Shown here piece by piece: positions 10,264-38,898 of a stretch of DNA of 64,000 bases. The stretch covers positions 124,001-188,000 of the forward strand of contig CAIKBL010000051.1 in NCBI GenBank assembly GCA_903825645.1. The letters are read 5' to 3'. The DNA is from an uncultured Pseudomonadota bacterium. GTDB lineage: Bacteria; Pseudomonadota; Gammaproteobacteria; Ga0077536. How positions within the stretch are numbered: the stretch's first letter is position 1; the number at the start of each line of letters is the position of its first letter. The notes beneath the pieces were generated by a model. That model did no database searches and was not told the origin of the DNA. It saw only the letters and a list, made by a program, of their open reading frames with translations. A program made the position numbers and the translations under genes.

Positions 10264-10388
10264 ACCTTGATTCTAAGCAACTCGACGTCCGTGCACTAGG
10301 CTTGAACGTTATTGACCACAGACGGGTAAGTCAAAGGACAAGGCACTTGCCGCGAGATGGGGGCCAACAATCAACACTGGGGGGGGCA

Positions 10389-10418
10389 GCCCGCAAAGCC
10401 GCGCTGGGCATTGCGGGC
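10389..10418 (-). terminator. Hairpin downstream of the alcohol dehydrogenase gene
   Basis: A perfect 8-bp stem, GCCCGCAA (10389-10396) with TTGCGGGC (10411-10418), encloses a 14-base loop just past the stop of the minus-strand dehydrogenase. It lacks a following T tract, so it may be a transcript-stabilising or rho-assisted structure rather than an intrinsic terminator. Confidence 0.4.
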
Positions 10419-10436
10419 CGTGTCTCTTGAAGGCGC

Positions 10437-11519
10437 TTAGTGGACGATAACGCCGCGGGCGTTTTTACCTTGTTCCATATCGGTGAACGCCTGTCCTACC
10501 TCATCAAGCGTGTAGGTCCTGGTGATGAGTCGGTCGATTTCTAGCTTGCCGGCTTTATACAAGCTCAGATAAAGCGGGAAGTCGACGCGGAAATTAGCGC
10601 TGCCATACATGCAACCCTTAATAGTTTTCGCGGTGAAGGGCAGAATGGCCGCGTTCACGGAGAACCGATCATCCATGCGTCCAACGCCGACCAAAACGGC
10701 CATGCCATTTTTGCGGGTCGCCTTGATACATTGTTCGATGACCTTGCTATTCCCGACCACATCGAAGGCGTAATCGACGCCAATGCCATTAGTCAACGCA
10801 TTAACCTGCTTGACCATGTCGACACCGGGGTCAATGACGTGGGTCGCACCGAACTCTTTGGCCATCTGCATCTTTTCAACAGATAGATCACAGGCAATGA
10901 TCTGGGCCGCACCCGCAATCCGAGCACCCTGAATCACATTCAGGCCAACGCCCCCACAGCCGAAAACGGCAACCGTCGTGCCGGGTTGAACGTTTGCGGT
11001 CCGAATGGCTGCGCCCACCCCGGTCGTGACACCACAACCGACTAGGGCTGCGACTTTGAAGTCATAGGATTTATCGATGCTGACCACACAGGCAGCCGGC
11101 ACGACGGCGTATTCGGCCATGATGCCGACAAAAGACATGACGAAAATGGACTGTCCATTTTTAGACACGCGGCTCGTGCCATCAAAAAGATTGCCATCCT
11201 GCTTCGCACCGGAGCAGAGGTAGGGCTCATGGTGGAGACAGTAGAAGCAGTCGCCACAATTCGGAATAAAGGAAATTACGACATGATCGCCCGGTTTGAC
11301 GTTCGTCACCCCTTCACCGACCTGCTCCACGATACCGGCACCCTCATGGCCTAGGACGACGGGGAAAGGGCTCGGAATCGTGCCGTTGATGACCGAAAGA
11401 TCGGAATGGCAAACCCCAGTGGCTTTCATCTTGACCAAGACTTCCCCCATTTTCGGCGGGGCAAGATCGACTTCGGTCACTGAGTATTCGTTCTGCTTCT
11501 GTACGACAACGGCCTTCAT
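10437..11519 (-). CDS. Zinc-dependent alcohol dehydrogenase (MDR, class III-like)
   Basis: A 360-residue medium-chain dehydrogenase. Catalytic zinc ligands are visible as GVCHSD and GHEGAG, and the structural zinc loop as the Cys cluster in [16 protein letters not shown]. The coenzyme motif is [14 protein letters not shown], and the acidic residue in IACDLS points to NAD(H). The product resembles Zn-dependent alcohol/formaldehyde dehydrogenases active on primary or aromatic alcohols. The chosen ATG has a strong AGGAGG site 8 bases upstream; a longer frame to 11579 would add a basic stretch and is unlikely. The gene is transcribed alone or with the monooxygenase gene 173 bases downstream. Substrate is unknown. 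Confidence 0.9.
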
Positions 11520-11725
11520 AGGGCGTCTCCTCCTGCGCTTCGGGTGATTAAGGGGCGGGCTCCCGCGCGGGAGATCCACCGTGGCTGATCGCGCTAGCGT
11601 ATCACGGGTCAGGACGGTTTAGCTCTGCCTCACCACCGGTTGGGCGCAGCAGGAAGCGGCCCCGAGGCAGGGGGGACGTGTGCATCGCCCTCACTGCCAC
11701 CACAGGCTTCCCAAGCCGCACGTGA

Positions 11726-14240: not shown

Positions 14241-15707
14241 ATGAGTTACGGAATACTTTCTTTCGGGGCGTATGTCCCGTCCTTGCGGCTCGCGCGTTCG
14301 GCCATCGCCAATGGGATGGCGTGGGCAGTCCCCTCCCTGAAAGGGCTGGCCAAGGGGGAGCGCGCTGTCGCGAACTGGGATGAAGATAGCGTGACCCTGG
14401 CCGTAGAGGCGTCGCGGGATTGTTTGCGTGGAATCACCGTTGAACCCGCCCAGATCCAACTAGCGTCGACGACCCTCCCGTTTGCGGATCGCAGTAACAG
14501 CGGTATTGTGGCGGACGCGCTCCTGTGCGCGGAATTCACAGGAACCGAAGATCTCGGCGGTAGTCGTCGGGCGGCGACCAGTGCGCTGGTCCGCTTGGGG
14601 CTGTGTCCCGGAGGCCGCGCGACGTTGCTTATCGCGACCGACTGCCGTGACGCCAAGCCGGGTAGCGTGCAGGAAATGAATTACGGACACGGCGCCGCCG
14701 CACTGCTGGTTGGCGAAGGCAAGCCGATTGCGCTCATCCGGGGGGCCGCGTCGTTTCACGATGACTTCGTCGATCAGTACAGAGCAGCCGATACCGACTA
14801 CGACTACACCCTCGAAGAGCGCTGGATTCGGGAAGAGGGATACAACAAGATCGTACCAAAGGCGGTGTCGGCCGCTCTAATGCATGCAGGCTTGTCGATT
14901 GATGAGATTAGTCGGGTTGTTCTCCCGGCCAACGTGGGGATTGGGAAGGGCGTCGCCAAGGTCCTCAACCTCGCGCCGGAGCGCTTGGTCGACCCAATGC
15001 TCGTCAACTGCGGCGACTGTGGGGTTGCACAGCCACTCCTCATCCTAGCGCATGCGCTGGAAAGCGCCGTTCCCGGCGAAAAAATACTCGTGATAGGCTT
15101 TGGCCAAGGCGCAGACGCGGTGGTTCTGGAAGTCACATCCGAAATTGCCGCATTGCAAAATAACCATGGGCCCGGTCACTCATTGGCGCACAAGCGGGTA
15201 ATCGACAACTACCCCATGTTCTTGTCGCTCCGCAATCAGCTCGACGTTGACTTTGGCATGCGAGCGGAGCGCGATAACCGCACCTCTCAACCCGCTTTCT
15301 ATCGACGTCGCAAAGACATCACTGGGATGGTTGGCGCTCGCTGCACCGGCTGCAAGACGTTGCAGTTTCCGCGCTCAAAGGTGTGCGTGAAATGCGGCGA
15401 AATGGATACCCAGATAGACGAAAGCCTGTCGGGCCTTGTCGGGCGCGTCAAATCTTATACGGAGGACTGGCTCGCCTACACGCCACTGCCTCCGTACATT
15501 TACGGTAACGTTGAATTTATTGACGGCGCCAACTGCATGCTGGAATTCACCGACTTCGCGCCCGGACAGGTTCAGGTCGGCAGTACGGTCAAGATGATGT
15601 TCCGTATCAAGGATTTTGACGCGAAACGCCACTTCCGACGTTATTTCTGGAAGCCGGCACCGGTTCAGGCGTCGTCACGTGAAATCGCATCTGCCGCATC
15701 GGCATGA
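14241..15707 (+). CDS. HMG-CoA-synthase-like protein fused to Zn-ribbon/OB-fold (DUF35)
   Basis: A 488-residue thiolase-superfamily protein. Residues 1 to about 345 resemble hydroxymethylglutaryl-CoA synthase (start YGILSFGAYVPSLRL). About 350-475 is a rubredoxin-like Zn ribbon with Cys368, Cys371, Cys382 and Cys385, followed by the OB fold known as DUF35, which in other systems binds acyl-CoA and bridges HMG-CoA synthase to thiolase. Where HMG-CoA synthases have the catalytic NACYGG, this protein reads TEDLGGSRRA (residues 102-111), so the nucleophilic cysteine appears absent. The thiolase gene follows after 19 bases. A role as a partner or scaffold of the thiolase in acyl-CoA condensation or cleavage is inferred; true HMG-CoA synthesis is doubtful. 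Confidence 0.82.
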   Translation: MSYGILSFGAYVPSLRLARSAIANGMAWAVPSLKGLAKGERAVANWDEDSVTLAVEASRDCLRGITVEPAQIQLASTTLPFADRSNSGIVADALLCAEFTGTEDLGGSRRAATSALVRLGLCPGGRATLLIATDCRDAKPGSVQEMNYGHGAAALLVGEGKPIALIRGAASFHDDFVDQYRAADTDYDYTLEERWIREEGYNKIVPKAVSAALMHAGLSIDEISRVVLPANVGIGKGVAKVLNLAPERLVDPMLVNCGDCGVAQPLLILAHALESAVPGEKILVIGFGQGADAVVLEVTSEIAALQNNHGPGHSLAHKRVIDNYPMFLSLRNQLDVDFGMRAERDNRTSQPAFYRRRKDITGMVGARCTGCKTLQFPRSKVCVKCGEMDTQIDESLSGLVGRVKSYTEDWLAYTPLPPYIYGNVEFIDGANCMLEFTDFAPGQVQVGSTVKMMFRIKDFDAKRHFRRYFWKPAPVQASSREIASAASA

Positions 15708-15726
15708 CACCCAGAGGTAGACCAGA

Positions 15727-16929
15727 ATGGCCAGAGGTATCAGGGACAAAGTTGCAATCATCGGCATGGGGTGCAGCAAATTCGGCGAGCGCTGGGACTG
15801 CGGCCCTGAAGAGTTAATTCTGGAGGCATTCAAGGAAGCCTTGGCGGACGCCAACATTTCGCGTGAAGAAATTGAAATGGCTTGGCTCGGCCTTTTCTTC
15901 CAGGAGCAGAGTGCGGGTAAGTCGGCGCTGCCGCTCAGTCTCTCCTTGCGTTTACCCAACATCCCCGTGACCCGGGTAGAGAATATGTGCGCCACGGGCA
16001 CAGAGGCACTGCGAGGCGCGGTCTATGCCGTTGCCGCAGGCGCCTGCGACATTGCGCTCGCGATGGGCGTCGAAAAGTTGAAGGATACGGGCTATGCCGG
16101 CCTGCCCGAGCGGACCAAGGGGACCTTTGACGATCTCTGGTTGCCCAATGCGACCGCACCCGGTGCCTTTGCCCAGCTGGCCAGTGCGTATGCCGCGAAA
16201 CACCGTCTGAACATGCACGATCTGAAACGCGCGATGGCCCACATTTCAGTTAAAAGCCATGCAAATGGCGTCCTGAACCCAAAGGCACATCTGCGCAAAA
16301 TTATCACGGAGGAGGAGGCGCTGAACGCCGGCGTCGTCGCCTATCCACTCGGGTTGATGGACTGTTGCGGCATCAGCGATGGCGCAGCGTGCGCGATCGT
16401 CACGAGCGTGGAGAAAGCCCGGGAAATGGGCTTAAAGGACGTCGTGGTGGTCAAGGCCATGCAGCTAGCGCCGAGCAACGGGTTTGAAATGTCGAACACG
16501 GGCTGGGATGGCAGCTATCTGCACACCACGCGCGTGGCCGCCCAGCGGGCTTACGCCGAGGGTGGCGTAAAAGATCCGCGGCGTGAAATCAATCTCATGG
16601 AAGTCCACGACTGCTTCTCGGTCACCGAGCTTGTGGTCATGGAAGATTTGGGGATTTCGCCCGAAGGCGGTGCCATCAAGGACGTGATGGATGGCGTGTA
16701 TGATCGGGACGGCGCTGTTCCGTGCCAGGTCGACGGGGGACTGAAATGTTTCGGACATCCCATCGGGGCGACCGGCTTACGCATGGCTTATGAAATTTAT
16801 CTGCAACTGCTCGGACGCGCGGGACAGCGGCAGTTGGGTAGTCCGTCCCTTGGTCTCACGCATAACCTGGGCGGACATCCTTTCCGAAACGTCGCGAGCG
16901 TGTCGCTTTTTGGCCTTCACTCGACTTGA
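15727..16929 (+). CDS. Thiolase family protein (SCP2/acetyl-CoA acetyltransferase-like)
   Basis: A 400-residue thiolase. The nucleophilic cysteine is Cys88 in NMCATGTEA, and the active-site histidine is in GHPIGATG. At the C-terminus the classical second catalytic cysteine region is THNLGGHPF, the variant seen in archaeal and SCP2-type thiolases that work with DUF35 proteins. It would cleave or form 3-oxoacyl-CoA in the cytoplasm. The ATG follows an AGAGG site with 9-base spacing. It is directly downstream of the HMG-CoA-synthase/DUF35 fusion and upstream of an acyl-CoA dehydrogenase, so the operon likely encodes a multi-protein CoA-ester pathway. Substrate unknown. Confidence 0.9.
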   Translation: MARGIRDKVAIIGMGCSKFGERWDCGPEELILEAFKEALADANISREEIEMAWLGLFFQEQSAGKSALPLSLSLRLPNIPVTRVENMCATGTEALRGAVYAVAAGACDIALAMGVEKLKDTGYAGLPERTKGTFDDLWLPNATAPGAFAQLASAYAAKHRLNMHDLKRAMAHISVKSHANGVLNPKAHLRKIITEEEALNAGVVAYPLGLMDCCGISDGAACAIVTSVEKAREMGLKDVVVVKAMQLAPSNGFEMSNTGWDGSYLHTTRVAAQRAYAEGGVKDPRREINLMEVHDCFSVTELVVMEDLGISPEGGAIKDVMDGVYDRDGAVPCQVDGGLKCFGHPIGATGLRMAYEIYLQLLGRAGQRQLGSPSLGLTHNLGGHPFRNVASVSLFGLHST

Positions 16930-16961
16930 ATTTGTCCATTGATTGGAGAGACGTAATTTTT

Positions 16962-18107
16962 ATGCAAACGCAAACATCGCCTTGGGCCACGCCCGATCAT
17001 GAACTGTACCGTGACACCGTGCGCCGCTTTCTAGAGGCGGAATTCGTGCCGCACCGCGAAACCTGGATCGAGCAGGGCTATTGTGATCCGACCGCTTGGC
17101 GACGGGCCGGCGAGGTCGGGCTTCTCTGCCCCGACATCCCAACCGAATATGGTGGGGGCGGTTGCGATTTCGGTTTTGACGCCGTGGTCTATGAGGAACT
17201 CATGCGGGCCGGTATCACCAGCTTCGGCAGTGGCATCCAGAGTATCGTGGCTCATTATCTACGCGTGTACGGCACCGAGGAGCAGAAACAGCGTTATCTG
17301 CCCAAGATGGCACGCGGCGAAATCATCACGTCCATTGCTATGACGGAGCCCGGCACGGGATCTGATCTGCAGGCGGTCAAAACCCGCGCGATTCGTGACG
17401 GAGACCACTATGTGCTAAACGGCTCAAAAACCTTCATTACCAACGGCTATAACGCCGACATGATCGTGGTGGTATGCAAAACCGACCCCAAAGAGCGCGC
17501 GAAGGGCATATCGCTGCTGTGCGTCGACACCCACGATCTGGCGGGGTTCCGGCGCGGCAAGCCCTTGAAGAAAATTGGCCAAAAAGGCCAGGACACCTGT
17601 GAGCTCTTTTTTACGGACTGTCACATTCCCGTCGGTAATCTGGTCGGGATGCAGGAAGGGCAGGGTTTCTTCCAGTTGATGAATCAACTCGGGCGCGAAC
17701 GCCTGATCATTGCCATCTCGGCGGTGGCGAGTATGGAAAGCTGTGTGCGGGTGACCACCGATTACGTCAAGCAGCGGGAGGCGTTTGGCAAGAAAATTTT
17801 CGACTTTCAGACCGCGAAGTTCACGTTGGTGGAATGCAAGACGGAAACCCGTCTTGCACGCGTGTTCGTAGATGACTGCATTCGACGTTTAAGCGACGGT
17901 GAGTTGGATGCGGAGTCGGCCTCGATGGCTAAATATTGGTGCACCGAAAAGGCTTTCGAGATTGCCAATCGCTGTCTGCAACTGCACGGCGGATACGGGT
18001 ACATGATGGACTACCCGATTGCTCATTATTTCACCGACGCGCGCGTCGGTATGATTTATGGAGGCAGCAACGAGATCATGAAAGAGCTCATCTCCCGTTC
18101 GCTCTGA
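16962..18107 (+). CDS. Acyl-CoA dehydrogenase
   Basis: FAD-dependent enzyme (381 residues) introducing a 2,3-double bond into an acyl-CoA. Family signatures are visible: MTEPGTGSDL, the ITNGYNADMIVV FAD-binding segment, YVKQREAFGK and LHGGYGYM. The C-terminal motif is YGGSNEIMKELI, as in long-chain and isovaleryl-CoA dehydrogenases, where the catalytic base is not in this loop. Glu259 (in ASMESCV) sits where those enzymes have their catalytic Glu. The ATG at 16962 is preferred over an in-frame upstream start because a GGAGAG site lies upstream and the family N-terminus begins here. It is the third gene of the operon. Electrons would pass to ETF. Confidence 0.92.
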   Translation: MQTQTSPWATPDHELYRDTVRRFLEAEFVPHRETWIEQGYCDPTAWRRAGEVGLLCPDIPTEYGGGGCDFGFDAVVYEELMRAGITSFGSGIQSIVAHYLRVYGTEEQKQRYLPKMARGEIITSIAMTEPGTGSDLQAVKTRAIRDGDHYVLNGSKTFITNGYNADMIVVVCKTDPKERAKGISLLCVDTHDLAGFRRGKPLKKIGQKGQDTCELFFTDCHIPVGNLVGMQEGQGFFQLMNQLGRERLIIAISAVASMESCVRVTTDYVKQREAFGKKIFDFQTAKFTLVECKTETRLARVFVDDCIRRLSDGELDAESASMAKYWCTEKAFEIANRCLQLHGGYGYMMDYPIAHYFTDARVGMIYGGSNEIMKELISRSL

Positions 18108-18119
18108 GACACGACGCGG

Positions 18120-19619
18120 ATGAAAAATGCCAATCTCTACGATCGCTATGCGGCCCATTTCCCGGCGGCGGCGGTTGAGTTTCTGCGCGACGAAGCCGGC
18201 ACCGTGGTGTCGTATGGAGAGCTGGCGCGGCGCTCCGCTCAGATCGCGGGCTATCTGATCGCCTGTGGCGTGAGCGCCGGCGATCGGATCACGGTCCAGG
18301 CCGAGAAATGTCCCACGTTCATCTGGCTCTATCTGGCGTGTTTGCGCGCAGGGCTCGTTTTCCATCCGCTGAATCCTGCCTACACGGAGGCCGAGCTCGA
18401 TTACTTTATCGGCGATGCGGTTCCCTCGATGCTGATCGGCGACGCCGCCGCCGTGGTGACGTTGGGTGTGCTGGCCAGCCGCTATGCAGTGCCGCGAGTA
18501 TTGAGCCTCGCTACGCTGAACGAAGAAAGCGCGCAATATCCTGCAGACTTTGTCTCGCACGACGTCTCACCGGATACCCTGGCCGCACTACTTTACTCTT
18601 CGGGGACGACAGGCAAACCGAAAGGCATCATGCTTTCGCATGGCAACCTAGCCACGAATGCGGCGGCGCTGACACGCGCCTGGGGCTTCACGACAAGCGA
18701 TGTACTCCTTCATATGCTGCCGCTTTTTCACGTGCACGGACTGTTTATCGCCTTGGGTTGCACGCTGATGTCGGGATCCCGACTCTTGTTCTGTGCCCGC
18801 TTCGATGCGGGCTTGGCGGTACGCCGGTTGAGCGAGGCCACGGTCATGATGGGGGTACCGACGTATTACACCCGTCTCCTCGCCCAGCCGACCTTGACGC
18901 CGGAAAGCTGCGACACCATTCGGCTTTTTACCAGCGGCTCTGCGCCGTTACTCAGCGAGACTTGGCTGGCGTTTAAAAACGCGACCGGACACGCGGTGCT
19001 CGAGCGTTACGGTATGACGGAAACCAGCATCATCGCCACGAATCCGCTGGACGGGGTACGTCGGCCGGGGGCCGTTGGCCCTGCGTTGGCAGGGGTCGAA
19101 ATTCGCATTGCCGATGCAACCGATCAATCGCTGGCCGTGGGTAACGTCGGACAGGTACAGGTACGGGGCAAGAGCGTCTTTCAGGGCTACTGGCGAAAAC
19201 CGGATAAGACGCGGGAGGATTTTACCGCGGATGGCTACTTCAGAACGGGCGACGATGGTATGCAAGACGCGGACGGCTATCTCTGGCTCTTAGGGCGCGC
19301 AAAGGATCTGATCATCACCGGCGGCCTGAATGTCTATCCGAGCGAAATCGAGCAGGTGCTCGATGGGCTGCCCATGGTGCAGGAATCTGCCGTCATCGGA
19401 TTACCTCATCCTGATTTTGGCGAGCAGGTGGCCGCGGTGATCGTGCTCAGACCTGAAGCGGATTGGGATGAAGAGGCCGTACGGGCGACCGTTCGACACT
19501 CCCTCGCCGCCTTCAAATGCCCCAAACAATACCGAATCGCGGCTGAACTTCCTCGAAACGCCATGGGGAAAGTTCAGAAAAACCTGCTGCGCGCCGAGGC
19601 CGCTAACGCCCCGGGCTAA
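18120..19619 (+). CDS. Malonyl-CoA synthetase-like acyl-CoA ligase (MatB family)
   Basis: A 499-residue AMP-forming ligase. ATP motif YSSGTTGKPKGIML, YGMTET, the GYLWLLGRAKDLI hinge region and the catalytic-lysine end PRNAMGKVQKNLLR are all present. The N-terminus (NLYDRYAAHFP) and the LACLRAGLVFHPLNPAY segment resemble malonate-CoA ligase MatB more than fatty-acyl ligases, so malonate or a methylmalonate-like dicarboxylate is the likely substrate; this is by family resemblance. It begins 12 bases after the dehydrogenase stop and closes the operon. Its last 17 bases overlap the convergent ceramidase-like gene. Confidence 0.85.
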   Translation: MKNANLYDRYAAHFPAAAVEFLRDEAGTVVSYGELARRSAQIAGYLIACGVSAGDRITVQAEKCPTFIWLYLACLRAGLVFHPLNPAYTEAELDYFIGDAVPSMLIGDAAAVVTLGVLASRYAVPRVLSLATLNEESAQYPADFVSHDVSPDTLAALLYSSGTTGKPKGIMLSHGNLATNAAALTRAWGFTTSDVLLHMLPLFHVHGLFIALGCTLMSGSRLLFCARFDAGLAVRRLSEATVMMGVPTYYTRLLAQPTLTPESCDTIRLFTSGSAPLLSETWLAFKNATGHAVLERYGMTETSIIATNPLDGVRRPGAVGPALAGVEIRIADATDQSLAVGNVGQVQVRGKSVFQGYWRKPDKTREDFTADGYFRTGDDGMQDADGYLWLLGRAKDLIITGGLNVYPSEIEQVLDGLPMVQESAVIGLPHPDFGEQVAAVIVLRPEADWDEEAVRATVRHSLAAFKCPKQYRIAAELPRNAMGKVQKNLLRAEAANAPG

Positions 19620-20241
19620 TCGATTGTTCGCGTTGCCGGATACTCTCCAGGGCCAGAAAAATGACCGCGCCGTTCAGCAGGTGCCAAAGCCAGTGCGTGC
19701 CGTGGGGCAGGGTGCCGCACCATCGCCAATCGAAAATTCTGGCGCACAGCGAGCCACCGAATAACCACGCGGCGGCCCGGAGCAATCGCCTCGTCGCATC
19801 CTCACGCATGATCACCGCCATGGTGACGAGTGCGCCAAGTACCGGCAAGTAGGCGAGCGAACCGTTCAGTAGCGTCCGCGGCGCCCAGAAATCAAGGCTG
19901 ACCATCGCGCCGGCCAAGAGCACGCAGCCCGTTGCGGCCACGACTTGCGGGTACCCGAGTGCGCGGCGCACGGTGAAATAGAGAAACGCCTGAACAAAAC
20001 AAAGGATGGGCACGACATCGGCCAGTTCCGCCCACGGCGCATGCGTGGCGTGCCAGGCCAGACTGCCGAAGCCAATGGCGTGCGCGAGTCCCCACAGCGT
20101 CCACCACTGGACACTGGACGCTCGTCCCTCGAGGCCGCCGCGCAGCCAACTGACGAGCGCGGCGGCGGTGAAGGCGACGTTGCTATAGGCATTCCAAGGT
20201 TCGAGATAACCCTGGGCCACGAGTTGCTCACAATATTGCAT
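19603..20241 (-). CDS. Ceramidase-family membrane protein (CREST superfamily)
   Basis: An integral membrane protein of 212 residues with about six to seven hydrophobic helices. Conserved family elements are an N-terminal CE....EPWNAYSN, GSLAWHATHAPWAELAD with the Ser, His and Asp of the zinc hydrolase site, and HWLWHLLNG near the C-terminus supplying the HxxxH pair. These match alkaline ceramidase and related CREST hydrolases. In bacteria the substrate is usually unknown and may be another amide lipid. Its stop lies inside the end of the ligase gene (tail-to-tail overlap), and its start faces the MaoC gene, with a divergent promoter region of about 125 bases between them. Confidence 0.78.
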   Translation of the reverse strand: MQYCEQLVAQGYLEPWNAYSNVAFTAAALVSWLRGGLEGRASSVQWWTLWGLAHAIGFGSLAWHATHAPWAELADVVPILCFVQAFLYFTVRRALGYPQVVAATGCVLLAGAMVSLDFWAPRTLLNGSLAYLPVLGALVTMAVIMREDATRRLLRAAAWLFGGSLCARIFDWRWCGTLPHGTHWLWHLLNGAVIFLALESIRQREQSISPGR

Positions 20242-20367: not shown

Positions 20368-20823
20368 ATGCCAGGGCTGTATTTCGAAGAGTTCAAGGTC
20401 GGTCAAATTTTTAAACATCCGATTCACCGGACAGTCACCGAAATGGATAACGTCCTTTTCTCGGGGCTTACCCATAATCCGGCAAGGCTTCATCTGGATG
20501 AAGAGTATTGCAAGAATCACACGGAGTTCGGGCAACGGATTCTGAACAGTGCCTTTACGCTGGCGCTCATGGTGGGGGTGTCTGTCTATGAAACCACGAT
20601 GGGCACCACGGTGGGTAATCTCGGCTGGGACGAGGTGCGTTTCCCGCGCCCGGTGTTCCATGGCGATACCCTCCATTTCGAAAGCGAAGTGCTCGAGCTA
20701 CGGGCATCCAAGTCGCGTCCCCAAAACGGTATCGTGATTTTTGCGCACCGCGGTTACAACCAACGTGATGAGCTCATCGGCGAGTGCAAGCGCACTGGTT
20801 TGATGTTGAGGAAGCCGGCATGA
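20368..20823 (+). CDS. MaoC-family hydratase
   Basis: A 151-residue hot-dog-fold protein of the MaoC/(R)-specific enoyl-CoA hydratase family. It reads close to mesaconyl-CoA or itaconyl-CoA hydratases: GLYFEEFKVGQIF, RTVTEMDNVLFSGLT, the catalytic-type LHLDEEY, VFHGDTLHFESEV and SKSRPQNGIV. It would add water across a branched C5 enoyl-CoA. The ATG has an AAGGGGAG site just upstream; an earlier in-frame start lacks one. The stop overlaps the next start (ATGA), and that next gene is a CitE-like lyase, the usual partner that cleaves the hydrated product. The pairing supports a mesaconate/citramalate or itaconate-type route. Confidence 0.85.
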   Translation: MPGLYFEEFKVGQIFKHPIHRTVTEMDNVLFSGLTHNPARLHLDEEYCKNHTEFGQRILNSAFTLALMVGVSVYETTMGTTVGNLGWDEVRFPRPVFHGDTLHFESEVLELRASKSRPQNGIVIFAHRGYNQRDELIGECKRTGLMLRKPA

Positions 20824-21704
20824 ATATTCTACGTTCCATGCTTTTTGTCCCAGGTGATAGTGAAAAAAAAATGGCCAAGGCGGCGTCTGTTGGCGCTGAT
20901 GCGCTCATTCTCGATCTCGAGGACTCAGTCGCGGCACAACGGCGCCCGTTGGCACGCGAAATGTCGCTGGCCTATCTCAAAGGCGCCGACCGGAGCAATG
21001 GCGAACTGTGGGTCCGGATGAATCCGCTGGACTCCGCGGACGCCTTGCTCGATCTGGTGGCCGTCGTCGCGGGACGTCCAGATGGTATCGCGCTCCCAAA
21101 GTGCGAGGGACCTCATCATGTGCTGCAGCTCTCGAATTATCTCGAGGTGCTCGAGACCCAGTACGGGATCCCGGTCGGCAGCATCGGCATTACGGCGATT
21201 GCAACCGAGACGGCGGCGGCACCTTTCACTTTGGGACAGTACAAAGGCGCGCCAAGGGTCCGGATACTGACCTGGGGCGCAGAAGATTTAGGTGCGGCTC
21301 TGGGGGCTAGTTCCAACAAGGATGAGCACGGCAACTATACGCCGCCTTATGTCTTGGCACGTTCCCTGTGCTTGTTTGGTGCGTACGCCGCCGGCGTGCA
21401 AGCACTCGATACCGTGCAGCCCGATTTCAGGGCATCAGATAAGTTGCTACGGGAATGTAACGAAGGCCGGCGCGATGGCTTCTTGGGCAAAATTGCCATC
21501 CACCCTGACCAGGTGGCGGTGATCAACGAAGCCTTTACCCCGTCGGCCGCTGAAATCGCGCACGCGCAAGCGGTGATCAATGCGTTTGCGACGAATCCTG
21601 AAGCGGGTACGTTGAGTCTTGAGGGCAAAATGATCGACAAGCCGCATCTCAAACAGGCGGAGCGGGTCATGGCCATTGCAAAGCAGGCCGAGGCCCGCAG
21701 ATGA
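20820..21704 (+). CDS. CitE-like CoA-ester lyase (malyl/citramalyl-CoA type)
   Basis: A 294-residue HpcH/HpaI-family aldolase. Key elements are RSMLFVPGDS, the Mg-binding ILDLEDSVA, RMNPLDS, ALPKCEG, and the acidic TWGAEDLGAALGA; the C-terminal IHPDQVAVIN is typical of CitE and malyl-CoA lyases. It would cleave a 3-hydroxy-dicarboxyl-CoA such as beta-methylmalyl-CoA or citramalyl-CoA into acetyl/propionyl-CoA plus glyoxylate or pyruvate. The ATG at 20820 overlaps the MaoC stop and is preferred to an upstream in-frame start. It is coupled by ATGA to the dehalogenase gene downstream. The exact substrate is unproven. Confidence 0.88.
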   Translation: MNILRSMLFVPGDSEKKMAKAASVGADALILDLEDSVAAQRRPLAREMSLAYLKGADRSNGELWVRMNPLDSADALLDLVAVVAGRPDGIALPKCEGPHHVLQLSNYLEVLETQYGIPVGSIGITAIATETAAAPFTLGQYKGAPRVRILTWGAEDLGAALGASSNKDEHGNYTPPYVLARSLCLFGAYAAGVQALDTVQPDFRASDKLLRECNEGRRDGFLGKIAIHPDQVAVINEAFTPSAAEIAHAQAVINAFATNPEAGTLSLEGKMIDKPHLKQAERVMAIAKQAEARR

Positions 21705-22579
21705 CCGCTTGGGTAGACGAAAAAAAGTTTGTCACTGTGCATGGCAGCCGCATGGCCTATGTGGAGCAGGGACAGGGCACCCCTATCGTTTTTCAGCATG
21801 GGAACCCGACTTCTTCTTATCTCTGGCGCAATATCTTGCCCAGACTTGCCCCGTTCGGACGCTGTATCGCCCTTGATCTGATTGGCATGGGCGATACCGC
21901 CAAATTACCGGGCACAGGACCCGACCGATATACCCTCGAGGTTCAACAGCGCTATTTTGATGGCGCGCTGGAAGCGCTGGGTGTCGAGCGCTCGGTGGTG
22001 TTGGTCCTGCACGACTGGGGCACAGCTCTGGGCTTCGATTGGGCGCGCCGACACGCCACGGCGGTGCGCGGAATCTGCCATATGGAGGGGATCGCCATGC
22101 CGCTAGAATGGTCGGATTGGCCGGAGTCTGCTCGCGGCATTTTTCAGACTTTTCGTTCGCCCGCAGGAGAGGATGTGGTGCTGGATAAAAATGTATTTGT
22201 AGAGCGGGTATTGCCGAAGTCCATTTTGCGGACGTTGAGCGAGGAAGAAATGGAAGCGTATCGCGCTCCTTTTCTGCAGGCCGGAGAAGATCGCCGGCCA
22301 ACGCTCGACTGGCCCAATCAAATCCCTGTAGCGGGCCAGCCGCCCGAGGTCTGCGCGACAGTCGAGGCGTACGGGACGTGGTTGAGTCAAACGGCGGTGC
22401 CGAAGCTTTTCATCAACGCTGAGCCTGGCATGATCATGACCGGCCGACCGCGTGAATATGCACGACGCTGGCCGAATCAACGCGAAGTGACTGTGCGCGG
22501 ACTACACTTCATACAGGAAGATTCTCCCGTGGAAATTACCGCCGCGCTGCGCGACTGGCTGGCGAGTCTGCCGGCGTGA
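21701..22579 (+). CDS. Haloalkane dehalogenase, LinB-like (HLD-II)
   Basis: An alpha/beta hydrolase of 292 residues that by family would hydrolyse carbon-halogen bonds to alcohol plus halide. It reads as a close relative of LinB: FQHGNPTSSYLWRNI, DLIGMGD, LHDWGTALGFDWARRH, MEGIAMPLEW and HFIQEDSP. Catalytic residues of the HLD-II type are in place: nucleophile Asp105, base His269, acid Glu129, and halide ligands Asn35 and Trp106. There is no signal peptide, unlike some periplasmic homologues. The start overlaps the lyase stop (ATGA), so it is co-translated within a CoA-ester operon, which is unusual. Natural substrate unknown; a promiscuous esterase role cannot be excluded but the halide pocket is intact. 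Confidence 0.92.
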   Translation: MTAWVDEKKFVTVHGSRMAYVEQGQGTPIVFQHGNPTSSYLWRNILPRLAPFGRCIALDLIGMGDTAKLPGTGPDRYTLEVQQRYFDGALEALGVERSVVLVLHDWGTALGFDWARRHATAVRGICHMEGIAMPLEWSDWPESARGIFQTFRSPAGEDVVLDKNVFVERVLPKSILRTLSEEEMEAYRAPFLQAGEDRRPTLDWPNQIPVAGQPPEVCATVEAYGTWLSQTAVPKLFINAEPGMIMTGRPREYARRWPNQREVTVRGLHFIQEDSPVEITAALRDWLASLPA

Positions 22580-22614
22580 ACTTTTGCTGTGGTTAGCTTT
22601 AGCAGGTGTTATGC

Positions 22615-23031
22615 ATGAATTTTGAAGACATTATAAAGATCGGGACAACGCATCAGGCGACGCTGGTGGTCACCCATGAGTTAACCGTGCAGGCGCGGGT
22701 GCCAGAGCTTCCCCCCGTCTACTCAACGCCAAACATGATTTTGGCTATGGAAGTGACCTGTACAGACTTGCTGAAACAGTGGTTGCCCGCTGGATGGGTC
22801 TCTGTCGGCACCTTGGTCCACGTCCGACATGTGGCTGCCACGCCGGTCGGTTGTCGTGTGCAGTTGACCGCAACGGTCGCGGAGATCTCGAAGGGCTGTG
22901 TGACTTTCGAGGTCGAAGCCCATGATGGGTTTGATTTGATCGGGAAAGGACAACATGCGCGCGCGCCTATCGAAATGGCGCGTTTCTTGGCTGGACTGGC
23001 TAAAAAGCAAGCCCGCATCGCGGGAACCTGA
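22615..23031 (+). CDS. FlK-like hot-dog thioesterase
   Basis: A 138-residue protein resembling fluoroacetyl-CoA thioesterase FlK. The FlK triad (Thr42, Glu50, His76 in that enzyme, from memory) appears here as Thr38, Glu46 and His72, all shifted by four, in VYSTPNMILAMEVT and VRHVAATPVG. The C-terminal EAHDGFDLIGKGQH segment also matches. It would hydrolyse a small acyl-CoA. The ATG at 22615 has AGCAGG 8 bases upstream. It follows the dehalogenase gene by 35 bases, which makes a haloacyl-CoA or other unwanted CoA ester a tempting substrate, but many FlK-like proteins have no link to fluorine. Family call is good, substrate is inference. Confidence 0.75.
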   Translation: MNFEDIIKIGTTHQATLVVTHELTVQARVPELPPVYSTPNMILAMEVTCTDLLKQWLPAGWVSVGTLVHVRHVAATPVGCRVQLTATVAEISKGCVTFEVEAHDGFDLIGKGQHARAPIEMARFLAGLAKKQARIAGT

Positions 23032-23043
23032 GGCAAGAAAATC

Positions 23044-23862
23044 ATGAGTGTTCACAGCAATAACACCGAAAAAGTGACGACACAGACCTTGAGAAAAATG
23101 AAGACGAACGGCGAAATCATCGCCTCTTTGACCGCTTATGACGCGGCATTCGCGCGTGTTCTCGATCGAGCGGGCTGTGATTTTATTCTCGTCGGCGACT
23201 CGGTCGGGATGGTCGTGCAGGGGCAGTCCACGACAATCCCCGTGACGGTAGACGATATCATCTATCACACCCGCTTGGTGGCACGAGGCGCTACCCGTGC
23301 CCTGATCATGGCGGACATGCCTTTCATGAGTTACCACTCGCCCGCAGATTGCCTGCATAACGCCGCGCGCCTGATGAAAGAAGGCGGCGCCGAGATGGTC
23401 AAACTCGAGTGGGGTGCTTTGCAACTCGACATGGTGGCGCGGCTGACGGAATGCGGGATCCCAGTATGTGCCCATCTCGGACTCACGCCGCAGGCCATCC
23501 ACAAGTTGGGCGCGTACCGGGTGCAGGGGCGGGAGCAGGAGACGGCCGCCAAGATGCTCCACGATGCACGGGCCCTAGAAGCCGCGGGCGCCGACATGCT
23601 GCTGCTCGAGTGCGTGCCCATGGGGTTGGCCGAGCAGATTACGCGCGCAGCCACGGTACCCGTCATAGGTATCGGTGCGGGTCCCGATGTGGATGGCCAA
23701 ATCCTAGTGCTCTATGACATCTTGGATATTGCGCCAGGGAAGCGGACTCGATTTTCGAAGAACTACATGACGGGTGTGGACAGTATCCATGCAGCCATCG
23801 AATCCTATGTCGTGGAAGTCAAGTCCAAGACATTCCCCACCGCTGCTTATGCCTTTCAATGA
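23044..23862 (+). CDS. PanB-like ketopantoate hydroxymethyltransferase
   Basis: A 272-residue TIM-barrel enzyme of the PanB family, which transfers a hydroxymethyl group from methylene-THF to 2-oxoisovalerate in pantothenate synthesis. Conserved parts are SLTAYDAAFARVLD, LVGDSVGMVVQG, MADMPFMSY, HLGLTPQAIHKLGAYRVQGR, LLECVP and VIGIGAGPDVDGQI. The usual VKLEGG metal-site loop reads VKLEWGA, so Gly-Gly is replaced. No panC or panD is adjacent; instead it sits between two thioesterases, and its stop overlaps the TesB start (ATGA). It may be a specialised paralogue acting on another 2-oxoacid. Calling it panB proper would be premature. Confidence 0.8.
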   Translation: MSVHSNNTEKVTTQTLRKMKTNGEIIASLTAYDAAFARVLDRAGCDFILVGDSVGMVVQGQSTTIPVTVDDIIYHTRLVARGATRALIMADMPFMSYHSPADCLHNAARLMKEGGAEMVKLEWGALQLDMVARLTECGIPVCAHLGLTPQAIHKLGAYRVQGREQETAAKMLHDARALEAAGADMLLLECVPMGLAEQITRAATVPVIGIGAGPDVDGQILVLYDILDIAPGKRTRFSKNYMTGVDSIHAAIESYVVEVKSKTFPTAAYAFQ

Positions 23863-24725
23863 ACCCGCGCTTGACGACGCTTATTGCTGGGCTAGCGCTA
23901 GAGAAACTCGAAGAAAACTTATTCCGCGGCGCGATTAGCGACACCATCATCAAGCGTGTCTATGGCGGAAAGGTACTCGGGGAGGCCAGTACGGCGGCGC
24001 AAATGACGGTAGAGGGGGATCGTGCCCTGCACTCGTTGCACGCTTATTTTTTGCGCGAAGCAGATTCGTATGCGCCCGTCATTTACTCGGTAGACCGTAG
24101 TCGCGACGGCAAGAGTTTTTCCGCGCGACGGGTGACCGCCATCCAGCATGGCAAACCGATTTTTACGCTCGAGGCTTCTTTCCATCGAGAAGAGATCGGC
24201 ATCGAATACCAATCACCGATTCCGGCGGTGCCGGCACCGGAAACACTAGAGCCGTTAGTGTGGCACTGGGACCAGTTCGAGACGCTCTCGGCGCGGCAGC
24301 AACGTACTATGAGTATCGTCGCACCCTTTCAAATCCGTGCCATTGACGGTCCGGGCGGTAGCCATGACCACGAGGGACGCCCGGTGCGGCGGGTGTGGAT
24401 CCGGGCCACCGACGTTCTCCCTGATAATCCAGTGTTGCATCGGGCAATGCTGGCCTACCTATCAGACTATGGACTAATCTGGACCTTACTCGCCCATCAT
24501 GGGTTCCAGCTGTCGAATCAACATATTGTCGTCGCGAGCTTGGATCATGCCATGTGGTTTCACCGACCCTTCCGTCTCGATGATTGGTTGCTGTATTACT
24601 GCGAGGGGGTTTCTTCGGCCGGCGCTCGGGGGCTCGCCCGCGGTTCTTTTTATGACCGGGAAGGTAAGTTGGTAGTGTCCGTCGCTCAAGAAGGATTAAT
24701 GCGGGTGATTGACGGCGAGCCCTAA
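23859..24725 (+). CDS. Acyl-CoA thioesterase II (TesB family)
   Basis: A 288-residue double hot-dog thioesterase. The N-terminal half has LEENLFRGAISD and VYGGKVLGEA, the second half HRPFRLDDWLLYYCEG and ARGSFYDREGKLVVSVAQEGLMR, which are the standard TesB signatures with the catalytic Asp/Gln/Thr region. It would hydrolyse acyl-CoA esters in the cytoplasm, releasing CoA. It is the last gene of the CoA-ester operon and overlaps the PanB-like gene by four bases. With the FlK-like protein the operon has two different thioesterases, suggesting release of CoA or clearing of dead-end esters. Confidence 0.9.
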   Translation: MNPRLTTLIAGLALEKLEENLFRGAISDTIIKRVYGGKVLGEASTAAQMTVEGDRALHSLHAYFLREADSYAPVIYSVDRSRDGKSFSARRVTAIQHGKPIFTLEASFHREEIGIEYQSPIPAVPAPETLEPLVWHWDQFETLSARQQRTMSIVAPFQIRAIDGPGGSHDHEGRPVRRVWIRATDVLPDNPVLHRAMLAYLSDYGLIWTLLAHHGFQLSNQHIVVASLDHAMWFHRPFRLDDWLLYYCEGVSSAGARGLARGSFYDREGKLVVSVAQEGLMRVIDGEP

Positions 24726-24780: not shown

Positions 24781-26592
24781 ATGCAGACGGCTGATCGGCC
24801 GAAATTTAAGCGTTTTGAACTGCTATCCAAGATAGGCGCAGGTCTGCATGGTCGGGTTTTCCTAGCATGGGATCCAAACCTAGAACGGAAGGTAGCACTC
24901 AAGATTCTGACCCGTCAGCGCGATACAGCAGCCACGATGGAGCAGTTTTTCGGGGAAGCGCGCGCGGTTGCGCGCGTGTCCCACCCCAATGTCATCCCGC
25001 TTTTCGAAGCGGGCGCCGAAAAAGGCTTGCCCTATCTAGTCTTCGAATATGTAGAGGGCTCGTCCTTGAAAACCTTTCTAGAAACTACCACTCTAGATAG
25101 GGAAACCGCCTGCACCAAGTTTCACGAAATCTGCGTAGGGGTAGCGGCGGCCCACGCCTTGGGGATCGCTCATCTCGACTTATCCCCGAACAATATTTTG
25201 ATAGATTCGCGCGGAACACCGCGAGTCATGGACTTCGGACTCTCGCGCTTTGTGGCGGCCCATCGGGGGGAGAGTAATAGCGAAGAGGATATGCAGGGGA
25301 CACCCCGGTATATGAGCCCGGAACATTTTATCGGTGCCCCCCTCGATATGCGCACCGACGTGTTCGCGCTAGGCCTGATGTTCTTCGAGTTGTTGGCCGG
25401 ACGTCCCGCTGCGAATGCTGCGCGAATCAAAGAGTTGACGAGCCAGTTGCGTAATCCTCAATTTGACTGGATCGCGCTGCAGAAAAAAGAAGTGCCGACC
25501 GAAATCATCAGCGTCATACGGGATGCGTTGGCCCGCGAACCTATTCGTCGGTTTGCAGATGCCGGCGCAATGGCCACTGCACTGCAAGAAGCGATGGAGT
25601 CGATGAAAGCGCGCGAGAACCGGAACTTGGCGGTTCAGTTCGTTTTACGCCGATTGCAGCGCAGGCCCGAGTTTCCGGCTTTCTCCAATAGCATCGCCGA
25701 AATCAATCGTCTGACTGATGAGGATAGTAGGGCCGGTCTCCAAGATCTGGCCGATGTGGTGATGCGGGATTTCAGTCTCGCTAATCGATTGATGAAAATC
25801 GCTAATTCCGCATTCTTTTCGCCCGACAGCAACCCAGCCGGGACCGTTGCTTCTGCCATCTCTCGGGTGGGCACCAAAACAGTCCGGTTCATCTGCAACG
25901 GACTGATGATGTTTGAACATTTAAAGGGTGATTCGCCCGGTCTTCAGGATGCGCTGGTGGAATCGTTCGTCTCTGGCCTGTTGGGTCGGTTGCTAGCGCA
26001 GCAGTTTTCGCCCGAATTAGCCGAGGAGGCCTTCATCTCCGCCATGTTCAATCGGCTGGGGCGCAATCTCGTGCTGTATTACCTCGCCGACGAATACACC
26101 GAGATTCAACAATGCTTTGCCACAGGGATGTCGATAATAGATGCCGAGCGTGCCATTCTCGCCAGCAGCTGCGCCGAAATTGGTGCCGCCGTCGCGGCGA
26201 GCTGGAAGTTTCCGGTCAGCCTGGTCTCGACGATGAAATCTCTACCCCCGGGGGTATTGCCGACGCCAGCGTTCGCCCTTGAGCGAACGCGCGCCTTGGC
26301 GCATTTTCCAAACGAGCTGTGTGCCTTGGTGAGCGGATCGGAGGCGCTGGACGCGCCCCTCGAAAAACTCGCACGCCTCGGAGAGCGATTTGCGCGAATT
26401 TTTCGCACCAACCCCACCGATCTGGCCGCTACACTTGATGTGGCGCTGCGAAAATTTGTCGATATTGCACCCTCGCTCGGCATAAATCCCAAAACGAGTG
26501 GATTTTGTCAAACAACAGGTGAATTTCTAGAGGTCTTCCGCTTGATGCAATCGATGCCACTCGGCGAGCCCGAGTACCGAGTCGGCGCCTAA
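24781..26592 (+). CDS. Ser/Thr protein kinase fused to HDOD domain
   Basis: A 603-residue cytoplasmic signalling protein. Residues 10-275 are a eukaryotic-type kinase: Gly-rich loop IGAGLHGRVFLAW, ATP-binding Lys41 (VALKIL), catalytic loop HLDLSPNN (131-138) and DFG (151-153), with an APE-like MSPEHF. The catalytic Asp133 is present, but HRD reads HLD and the usual Lys two residues after Asp is Ser135, so activity may be altered. Residues about 285-510 form an HDOD domain (QFVLRRLQRRPEFPAFS, MRDFSLANRLMKIANSAFF), a phosphohydrolase-like fold used in bacterial signalling. No membrane helix is seen. It starts 55 bases after tesB. Targets are unknown. Confidence 0.88.
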   Translation: MQTADRPKFKRFELLSKIGAGLHGRVFLAWDPNLERKVALKILTRQRDTAATMEQFFGEARAVARVSHPNVIPLFEAGAEKGLPYLVFEYVEGSSLKTFLETTTLDRETACTKFHEICVGVAAAHALGIAHLDLSPNNILIDSRGTPRVMDFGLSRFVAAHRGESNSEEDMQGTPRYMSPEHFIGAPLDMRTDVFALGLMFFELLAGRPAANAARIKELTSQLRNPQFDWIALQKKEVPTEIISVIRDALAREPIRRFADAGAMATALQEAMESMKARENRNLAVQFVLRRLQRRPEFPAFSNSIAEINRLTDEDSRAGLQDLADVVMRDFSLANRLMKIANSAFFSPDSNPAGTVASAISRVGTKTVRFICNGLMMFEHLKGDSPGLQDALVESFVSGLLGRLLAQQFSPELAEEAFISAMFNRLGRNLVLYYLADEYTEIQQCFATGMSIIDAERAILASSCAEIGAAVAASWKFPVSLVSTMKSLPPGVLPTPAFALERTRALAHFPNELCALVSGSEALDAPLEKLARLGERFARIFRTNPTDLAATLDVALRKFVDIAPSLGINPKTSGFCQTTGEFLEVFRLMQSMPLGEPEYRVGA

Positions 26593-34783: not shown

Positions 34784-35455
34784 ATGGACATCTTTGCTCG
34801 CCCTATCGCTATTCGCCGTACCCAAGCGGAGCGCTCCGCATTGTCCGATGTGCGGATGGTGGATGCCGCGATTGGTCTGATGGCGAGTCGTGGTATTAGC
34901 GGGATGACGCTCAAAGAAGTGGGCGAACTCGCGGGTTATAGCCGGGCCATGGCCGGTTGGCGCTTTGGCACGAAGGCGAATCTCTGTGCCTTCATAATCA
35001 GGACCGTAGGAGACGAATGGCTACGCGCACTCAATGAGGCGGTCCGCAACAAGCACGGATTAGCGGCGATTCATGCGGCGACAGACGCGCATTCGCGATT
35101 CGTGCACGATGGCGCGGAACGCATCCGCGTGTTCTACATGTTGTGGTTTCACTCCACGGGCCCAGATCCCGAACTCAAACAAGTCATTGTCAAAGTCCAC
35201 GAGCGACGCCAGCGGGATGTCGAAGCATGGATTGAACAGGGGATTTCAGCGGGCGCTGTGCGTGAAGATGCTGAGGTGAAAACCGTGGCGGCGCAGTTTT
35301 GCGCAACGATCATCGGGATAGTCTATCAATGGCTCGTCGAGCCGACCGCCCAGCACCAAATCCACGATTTACATCAAGGTCTCAAACAGCAGATGTCGCG
35401 GGCACTCGCCCGCGACATAACGGACGCCAAGCGTCCGCAACAGGAGCAGGAATAA
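34784..35455 (+). CDS. TetR-family transcriptional regulator
   Basis: A 223-residue repressor-type protein. The N-terminal helix-turn-helix is visible at about 25-70 ([38 protein letters not shown]), where the recognition helix is unusual in reading [12 protein letters not shown]. The rest is an all-helical ligand-binding domain. The gene precedes the isobutyryl-CoA mutase gene and its stop TAA shares its last base with that ATG, so both are co-transcribed. Two palindromes lie upstream. An acyl-CoA or the mutase substrate is a reasonable ligand guess, but unproven. Confidence 0.85.
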
Positions 35456-38400: not shown

Positions 38401-38898
38401 GGCCTTAATTTCTGTGAAAACCCCTGGCAGGGCTCGTTCATCATCAATGAGATGACCGATTTGGTAGAAGAAGCGGTCTATCAGGAGTTTGAAAGAATTT
38501 CAGAGCGTGGTGGCGTGCTGGGCGCGATGGATACCATGTATCAGCGCGGCAAAATCCAGGACGAGAGCCTCTACTATGAGAGTCTCAAACACGATGGTCG
38601 TCTCCCGCTGATCGGGGTGAATACTTACCTGCCCAAGAAAGGGCATGAAGATCAGGTCACGACGATTGAGTTGATGCGCTCGACGGAAGCGGAGAAGCAG
38701 GAACAAATTACGGCCGTGCATGCGTTTCAGGCACAGCACGCGGCTGCACGTCCCGCACAACTTTTACATCTGCAGGAAGTAGCGCGCCGCCGCGGTAATG
38801 TGTTCGAGGCGCTGATGGATGCGGTGAAGGTCGCGTCGCTCGGACAAATATCCGGAGCACTCTATGACGTCGGGGGCGAGTATCGACGCAATATGTAA
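35455..38898 (+). CDS. icmF: Fused isobutyryl-CoA mutase
   Basis: A 1,147-residue adenosylcobalamin enzyme that interconverts isobutyryl-CoA and n-butyryl-CoA, with its own G-protein chaperone in the middle. Domains: B12-binding at about 20-150 with DGHDAA (His33 as the axial cobalt ligand); a MeaB-like GTPase with P-loop GTGGAGKS at 210-217; mutase at about 590-1100 with [13 protein letters not shown]. The two residues that separate isobutyryl-CoA from methylmalonyl-CoA mutases fit the former: Phe609 in MFAGEG (Tyr in methylmalonyl-CoA mutase) and Gln795 in AQNTCIF (Arg in methylmalonyl-CoA mutase). An upstream in-frame start at 35299 lies inside the TetR gene and is rejected. Role: branched-chain or butyrate carbon flow. 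Confidence 0.93.

Follow-up and report, generated by a model that had tools for sequence, protein, structure and literature searches.

A tightly packed set of six genes, which places a haloalkane dehalogenase (HLD) among enzymes of acyl-coenzyme A (acyl-CoA) metabolism, lies in a 64,000-nucleotide stretch of DNA, hereafter the window, from an uncultured Pseudomonadota bacterium of the gammaproteobacterial lineage Ga0077536 (GenBank assembly GCA_903825645.1, contig CAIKBL010000051.1, positions 124,001 to 188,000). The six consecutive genes, all on the forward strand, occupy positions 20368-24725 as open frames whose starts were set from the starts and lengths of homologs and from the bases at the junctions, and the families of the window proteins were assigned by Pfam and NCBIfam model scans against the cut-off of each model. 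In order, they encode a single-domain MaoC-type hydratase (20368..20823; PF01575, 71.9 bits against a cut-off of 27), a CitE-like acyl-CoA lyase (20820..21704; PF03328, 103.6 bits, cut-off 25), an HLD of the HLD-II (LinB) type (21701..22579; NF002938, 404.5 bits, cut-off 241), a FlK-family hot-dog thioesterase (22615..23031; PF22636, 103.4 bits, cut-off 27), the ketopantoate hydroxymethyltransferase PanB (23044..23862; NF001452, 361.7 bits, cut-off 272, with TIGR00222 also above its cut-off) and a TesB-type double hot-dog acyl-CoA thioesterase (23859..24725; PF02551, 134.1 bits, cut-off 21), which is below the cut-offs of both NCBIfam TesB models. Three of the five junctions are ATGA overlaps (at 20820, 21701 and 23859) and the remaining junctions are gaps, of 35 bases between HLD and FlK and of 12 bases between FlK and PanB. 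Frames, coordinates and family scans therefore bear out the tight packing described in the initial annotation of this DNA, and the residue sets that it listed are present in full, namely Asn35, Asp105, Trp106, Glu129 and His269 in the window HLD and Thr38, Glu46 and His72 in the window FlK. The setting that it described for the dehalogenase also holds, as the gene lies among acyl-CoA enzymes and not in a xenobiotic cluster.

The arrangement is real and old and, as far as searched, specific to one bacterial family, and the enzymes themselves are of known kinds. At E <= 1e-60, an HLD is found in 34 of 144 genomes, the window genome counted, and 29 of the 36 genomes of the window's family carry one. 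Besides the window, the loci examined comprise 25 larger stretches, two short loci (L013 and L022) and a contig end (L141, genome G025); counts out of 28 refer to the family HLD loci including the window, with L141 taken apart. MaoC and CitE lie upstream of the HLD in all 28 loci, and the gap between the HLD and the cluster gene just before it (CitE or, in seven loci, one of CaiB type) never exceeds 275 bases. PanB lies downstream in 27 loci, the remaining one (L013) stopping at a contig edge, and at L141 the HLD adjoins PanB on a contig that stops within the HLD. FlK is found downstream of the HLD in 19 of the 27 loci with a readable downstream side, counting L041, where it is a fragment; TesB is present in 16 of the 28. 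These HLD-bearing clusters span nine genera (g1 and g3 to g10) in assemblies that range from 1.4 Mb (71% complete) to 6.1 Mb, and genomes of about 2 Mb retain the HLD at loci from which FlK and TesB are missing. Conservation in related genomes, which had been proposed as a check on the gene order, is thus found, the core order being kept throughout the 28-locus set. Among the papers listed on dehalogenase operons, their natural substrates and their genomic context, no title or opening of an abstract describes this arrangement. One record (L096) is titled Klebsiella pneumoniae though its contig carries this family's cluster, and the title looks wrong.

Whole-region synteny is not favoured as the cause of this linkage. 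We looked in the 25 relative loci for the ten genes that flank the window cluster. No locus held the major facilitator superfamily protein, the flavin (FAD) monooxygenase, the alcohol dehydrogenase, CinA or the glutathione S-transferase, and the ABC-F protein and the protocatechuate dioxygenase recurred once each. The cupin was found in eight loci and a luciferase-like gene in four, two of its four matches being weak; the gene next after TesB, a Ser/Thr kinase fused to an HDOD domain (24781-26592), was found in 10. These counts are lower bounds because the sequence available upstream of the cluster is often short, only eight of the 25 extending at least 3 kb past the first cluster gene. It is the recurrence of seven of the ten flanking genes in only 0 or 1 of 25 loci that speaks against synteny of the region as a whole.

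The dehalogenase itself appears to have a long history in this place. The pentad Asn35/Asp105/Trp106/Glu129/His269 is invariant in the alignment of all 28 cluster HLDs, and in a tree of 46 HLD rows the 28 cluster copies form one clade (support 100/99), with LinB and 17 other HLD rows outside it. Under midpoint rooting, and with LinB as the only named reference row, the HLD groups with LinB rather than with the distant HLD rows. Pairwise identity within the cluster set drops to 51% and correlates with the identity of eight neighbors (r 0.73 to 0.91, MaoC lowest, the pairs not being independent), and omega, the ratio of nonsynonymous to synonymous divergence, is 0.035 to 0.227 in eight HLD pairs, with synonymous divergence (dS) saturated (above 2) in two pairs. 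By these sequence measures the HLDs are evidently under purifying selection and diverging in step with their neighbors. The single clade, the matching divergence and the low omega thus fit vertical inheritance under constraint, and recruitment for industrial pollutants does not fit; the single clade and the divergence in step with the neighbors lead us to reject the idea that the HLD came in recently as a xenobiotic gene. Judging from the pentad, the HLD-II model score and the LinB-type relatives, dehalogenase activity of the cluster HLD is likely.

Dehalogenase genes outside the cluster were compared at 17 HLD loci outside the family (L098-L105, L119-L122 and L127-L131, five of them contigs of 3 to 6 kb) and at four in-family paralogue loci (L134-L137), and CitE gave no tblastn match at any of these. 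At one paralogue locus (L136, 6338-10509) the HLD has weak matches to MaoC, the CaiB-type gene and the dehydrogenase nearby, and at one outside locus (L099:4518-7878) a CaiB/BaiF-family gene directly follows the HLD; both neighbors recall the CaiB-type gene that precedes the HLD in seven family loci. Phylum-wide, an HLD at E <= 1e-70 occurs in five of 398 genomes, the window genome among them. Four other members of the class were examined, and three of them have a MaoC-CitE pair without an HLD; the pair therefore also exists on its own.

The unit is larger than initially noted, since four more genes of the same strand (14241-19619) recur alongside the six, less tightly. Their counts are out of 26 loci (the window and L040-L064), and contig ends cause part of the shortfall. 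The first encodes a 3-hydroxy-3-methylglutaryl-CoA synthase (HMGCS)-like protein of the KAS III fold, fused to a zinc-ribbon/OB (ChsH2-type) domain (14241..15707; 16 of 26 loci), and the second an SCP2-type thiolase of the NF004810 family (15727..16929; 653.1 bits, cut-off 403; 16 of 26). They are followed by an acyl-CoA dehydrogenase, assigned by family scans and starting at the ATG of MQTQTSPW (16962..18107; 21 of 26), and by an AMP-forming CoA ligase of the malonyl-CoA synthase (MatB) subfamily (18120..19619; NF005702, 664.7 bits, cut-off 558; 24 of 26), which matches the solved structure 4fuq at E 1.7e-142. In the window, the two halves of the cluster are split by a ceramidase-like membrane protein gene on the reverse strand (19603-20241; below the Pfam cut-off; five of 26 loci), which is missing from the same-genus locus L132. 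The distance from the end of the ligase to MaoC is about 200 bases or less in many loci and 0.9 to 7 kb in some.

Two genes of this larger unit deserve comment. In the HMGCS-like domain, a Ser within the motif GGSRRAAT occupies the site of the catalytic Cys of HMG-CoA synthases, and the motif is found in 12 of 14 copies. Because the Ser-for-Cys motif is kept, the protein may lack catalysis of its own and act as a partner to the thiolase, in the manner of the archaeal HMGCS or PhlA-type assemblies that are its closest solved relatives. The CaiB/racemase-type gene of some relatives lies between CitE and the HLD in seven of 28 loci; the one copy scanned (L045) belongs to PF02515, and all seven copies carry the motifs GHDINY and GDFGGG of alpha-methylacyl-CoA racemases. 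Farther away, about 11 kb downstream of the cluster in the window, positions 35407-38898 (start uncertain) encode a B12-dependent acyl-CoA mutase to which a MeaB-type GTPase domain is fused.

As to what the acyl-CoA genes do, the closest solved relative of the CitE-like lyase is mitochondrial CLYBL, a citramalyl-CoA lyase, and that of MaoC is a beta-methylmalyl-CoA dehydratase. We infer a short branched or dicarboxylic acyl-CoA as the substrate of the cluster; the racemase-type gene and the SCP2-type thiolase would also fit 2-methyl-branched acids. PanB probably stands apart from this route. It is the single PanB match in the window genome, with one PanC match on another contig, and because it is the only copy found and scores above the family cut-offs it is most simply the housekeeping enzyme of pantothenate synthesis. 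A PanB paralogue with a new function is not favoured for the same reasons, so that, of the earlier label "PanB-like enzyme", the family assignment stands and the protein is most simply plain PanB.

The best explanation, to which we give an even chance, is that the six genes form the downstream half of an acyl-CoA cluster vertically inherited in one gammaproteobacterial family, and that the HLD is a working HLD-II dehalogenase serving as an accessory for a natural halogenated substrate. From gene families and order, the MatB-like ligase would activate a short branched or dicarboxylic acid and the acyl-CoA dehydrogenase would oxidize its CoA ester, the CaiB/racemase-type enzyme of some relatives would re-face the acyl-CoA, MaoC would hydrate it and CitE would cleave the product to acetyl-CoA and a 2-oxo acid, while FlK and TesB would free the CoA held in stalled thioesters. 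In the HLD, to go by the conserved pentad and by studied HLD-II enzymes, Asp105 would displace a halide held by Asn35 and Trp106, and His269 with Glu129 would activate the water that frees the alcohol. The enzyme, which the cluster could dispense with, would thus act in an accessory role on a haloalkane or haloalkyl acid of natural origin, its place in the cluster predating the divergence of the family, and PanB, a housekeeping gene, would share the transcript, co-transcription being suggested by the spacing.

Several observations weigh against this explanation. In two genomes of the same genus (G001, 97% complete, and G003, 90%) the cluster persists but lacks the HLD, with FlK directly after CitE, and therefore the pathway does not need the HLD; the other five HLD-less genomes of the family are 57 to 87% complete, and one of them (G006) has a PanB locus without any other cluster gene. 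The upstream half is linked more loosely than the MaoC-CitE-HLD-PanB core, since its genes are present in 16 to 24 of 26 loci and contig ends do not account for the whole shortfall: L042 and L060, for instance, have neither the thiolase nor the HMGCS-like gene in the 4 to 5 kb that precede the dehydrogenase. In some loci, such as L048 and L061, that half lies kilobases away. No alcohol or aldehyde dehydrogenase was recognized in the cluster, though an alcohol is the expected product of the HLD, and the alcohol dehydrogenase upstream in the window (10437-11579) fails as a candidate partner, being found in none of the 25 relative loci, only eight of which reach at least 3 kb past the first cluster gene. 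The curated itaconate models of NCBIfam are missed by both MaoC (133.5 against 340 bits) and CitE (148.8 against 375 bits). The pentad is not decisive for dehalogenation, because Renilla luciferase, an HLD-II relative, keeps the same residues. Finally, a housekeeping PanB weakens the argument that all genes belong to one catabolic route.

A more specific claim, which we advance only tentatively, is that the HLD has a fixed native role in acyl-CoA metabolism, acting on a natural metabolite that the cluster makes or uses. This could be a branched C4-C6 acid or an alkyl compound, either of them halogenated, or a lactone or ester without halogen, in which case FlK, TesB and the co-encoded PanB would prevent the trapping of free CoA. 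If true, it would give the HLD-II subfamily a native, non-xenobiotic pathway.

One may argue instead that these are co-regulated CoA and housekeeping genes without a shared pathway, and that the HLD is a broad detoxifying dehalogenase placed under a reliable promoter. The presence in the group of PanB, housekeeping and the only copy found, would be natural under such an arrangement, and so would the independent coming and going of the HLD, FlK, TesB and the CaiB-type gene; moreover, at 11 other HLD loci read by eye most neighbors looked unrelated to CoA metabolism. Nevertheless, a passenger would not be expected to keep the same neighbor, CitE or the CaiB-type gene, at all 28 loci and in nine genera while most flanks turn over, nor to be retained in genomes of about 2 Mb with loci lacking FlK and TesB, and we consider this account unlikely.

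It is also rather improbable that the fold has been repurposed, such that the HLD hydrolyses a non-halogenated electrophile of the CoA pathway (an activated ester, a lactone or an epoxide) by the same Asp-ester mechanism. The close and old linkage of the HLD to acyl-CoA enzymes would suit such a role, for which the beta-lactone decarboxylase OleB, encoded with the OleA thiolase and OleC, is a precedent (PMC7064751). There is also a pocket signature: at LinB position 247, which forms pocket and tunnel (PMC4230811), the window HLD has Met244 and 27 of the 28 cluster copies have Met, whereas Ala, the LinB residue, is found in eight of the nine other HLDs chosen as nearest, LinB included. However, none of the 28 copies departs from Asn or Trp at the two positions that hold the halide, the HLD-II model is matched, the catalytic Glu of HLD-II enzymes is in place, and among the pocket positions compared 247 alone is peculiar to the cluster HLDs.

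The initial annotation had suggested a route in which a halogenated C2-C5 acid is made or cleared via CoA esters; in such a route FlK would hydrolyse the halo-acyl-CoA. Thr/Glu/His are retained in the window FlK, and FlK follows the HLD in most readable loci, as given above. Across 21 aligned FlK copies the catalytic Glu and His are present in all, and the Thr in 18, with Ser in three. The gate position, however, is Leu32 in the window FlK and Leu in 21 of 21 copies, where Streptomyces cattleya FlK has the gate or lid Phe (F36) for fluorine discrimination. In addition, across 23 family genomes with HLD scored at E <= 1e-60, both genes occur in 13, the HLD only in six, FlK only in three and neither in one (Fisher p = 1.0), so that FlK is absent or broken in six of 19 HLD-bearing genomes and present in three of four HLD-less ones; one FlK-only genome (G006) is 62% complete and the genome with neither (G017) 72% complete. 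At a same-genus locus (L041, genome G004), an internal deletion at about 10265-10460 removes the Glu and His region of FlK and leaves the HLD and PanB intact. Because the gate Phe is replaced and FlK is lost independently of the HLD, the link to fluoroacetyl-CoA is not supported, and the route in which FlK hydrolyses a halo-acyl-CoA is very improbable. A halogenated C2-C5 acid as such may still be involved. The presence of a FlK-family gene thus need not signal organofluorine.

An accessory dehalogenase in an inherited acyl-CoA cluster, if that is what these genes encode, matters beyond this family. Little is known, as far as we are aware, of what LinB-type dehalogenases do in nature, and a family in which the HLD has stayed fixed in an acyl-CoA cluster through divergence to about 51% identity offers a native genetic context. 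An enzyme class known chiefly for degrading pollutants may thus have a natural function. Seaweed microbiomes are rich in dehalogenase genes (PMC10919026).

Four known systems invite comparison. The FlK of S. cattleya belongs to the same PF22636 family and shares Thr, Glu and His with the window copy, and it differs in its gate Phe, which is Leu in the cluster copies, themselves lost independently of the HLD. In the OleABCD system, the HLD-related OleB is likewise encoded with a thiolase-fold enzyme and with OleC, an AMP-ligase-fold enzyme. The title of a work cited in PMC7064751 links OleB with the class III HLDs. The window HLD matches the HLD-II model and has a Glu acid, which would speak against class III membership, and the window ligase matches MatB; an OleB-type function is kept only as a precedent. 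The itaconate/methylsuccinate cluster (ich-mcd-ccl, ripABC), as described in PMC12290011, is a studied precedent for encoding an acyl-CoA dehydrogenase, a MaoC hydratase and a CitE lyase together. The window differs from it in that its MaoC and CitE fall below the curated cut-offs, and in having a MatB-like ligase and no recognized dedicated itaconate CoA transferase; it also adds the HMGCS-like/thiolase unit, the HLD and PanB.

Closest of all are the LinB-type enzymes. The best solved matches of the window HLD include 7pw1 and LinB, and plasmid genes annotated as linB are 62.5-63.2% identical to it over 277 residues; DadB of Alcanivorax, whose identity to LinB is 62%, works as a dehalogenase (PMC3938430). 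At LinB position 143 the cluster HLDs have Trp in 28 of 28 copies, as does DmbA (PMC8584953). LinB itself has Asp147 and Leu177, which narrow its main tunnel according to the same paper, and the cluster HLDs have Ala (27 copies) or Ser (one) at the former position and Ser (28 of 28) at the latter; small residues at both positions are also common among other HLDs. What distinguishes the cluster HLDs from LinB, DmbA and AncLinB-DmbA is their own clade outside LinB, the Met at LinB position 247 in 27 of 28 copies and their fixed place in an acyl-CoA cluster.

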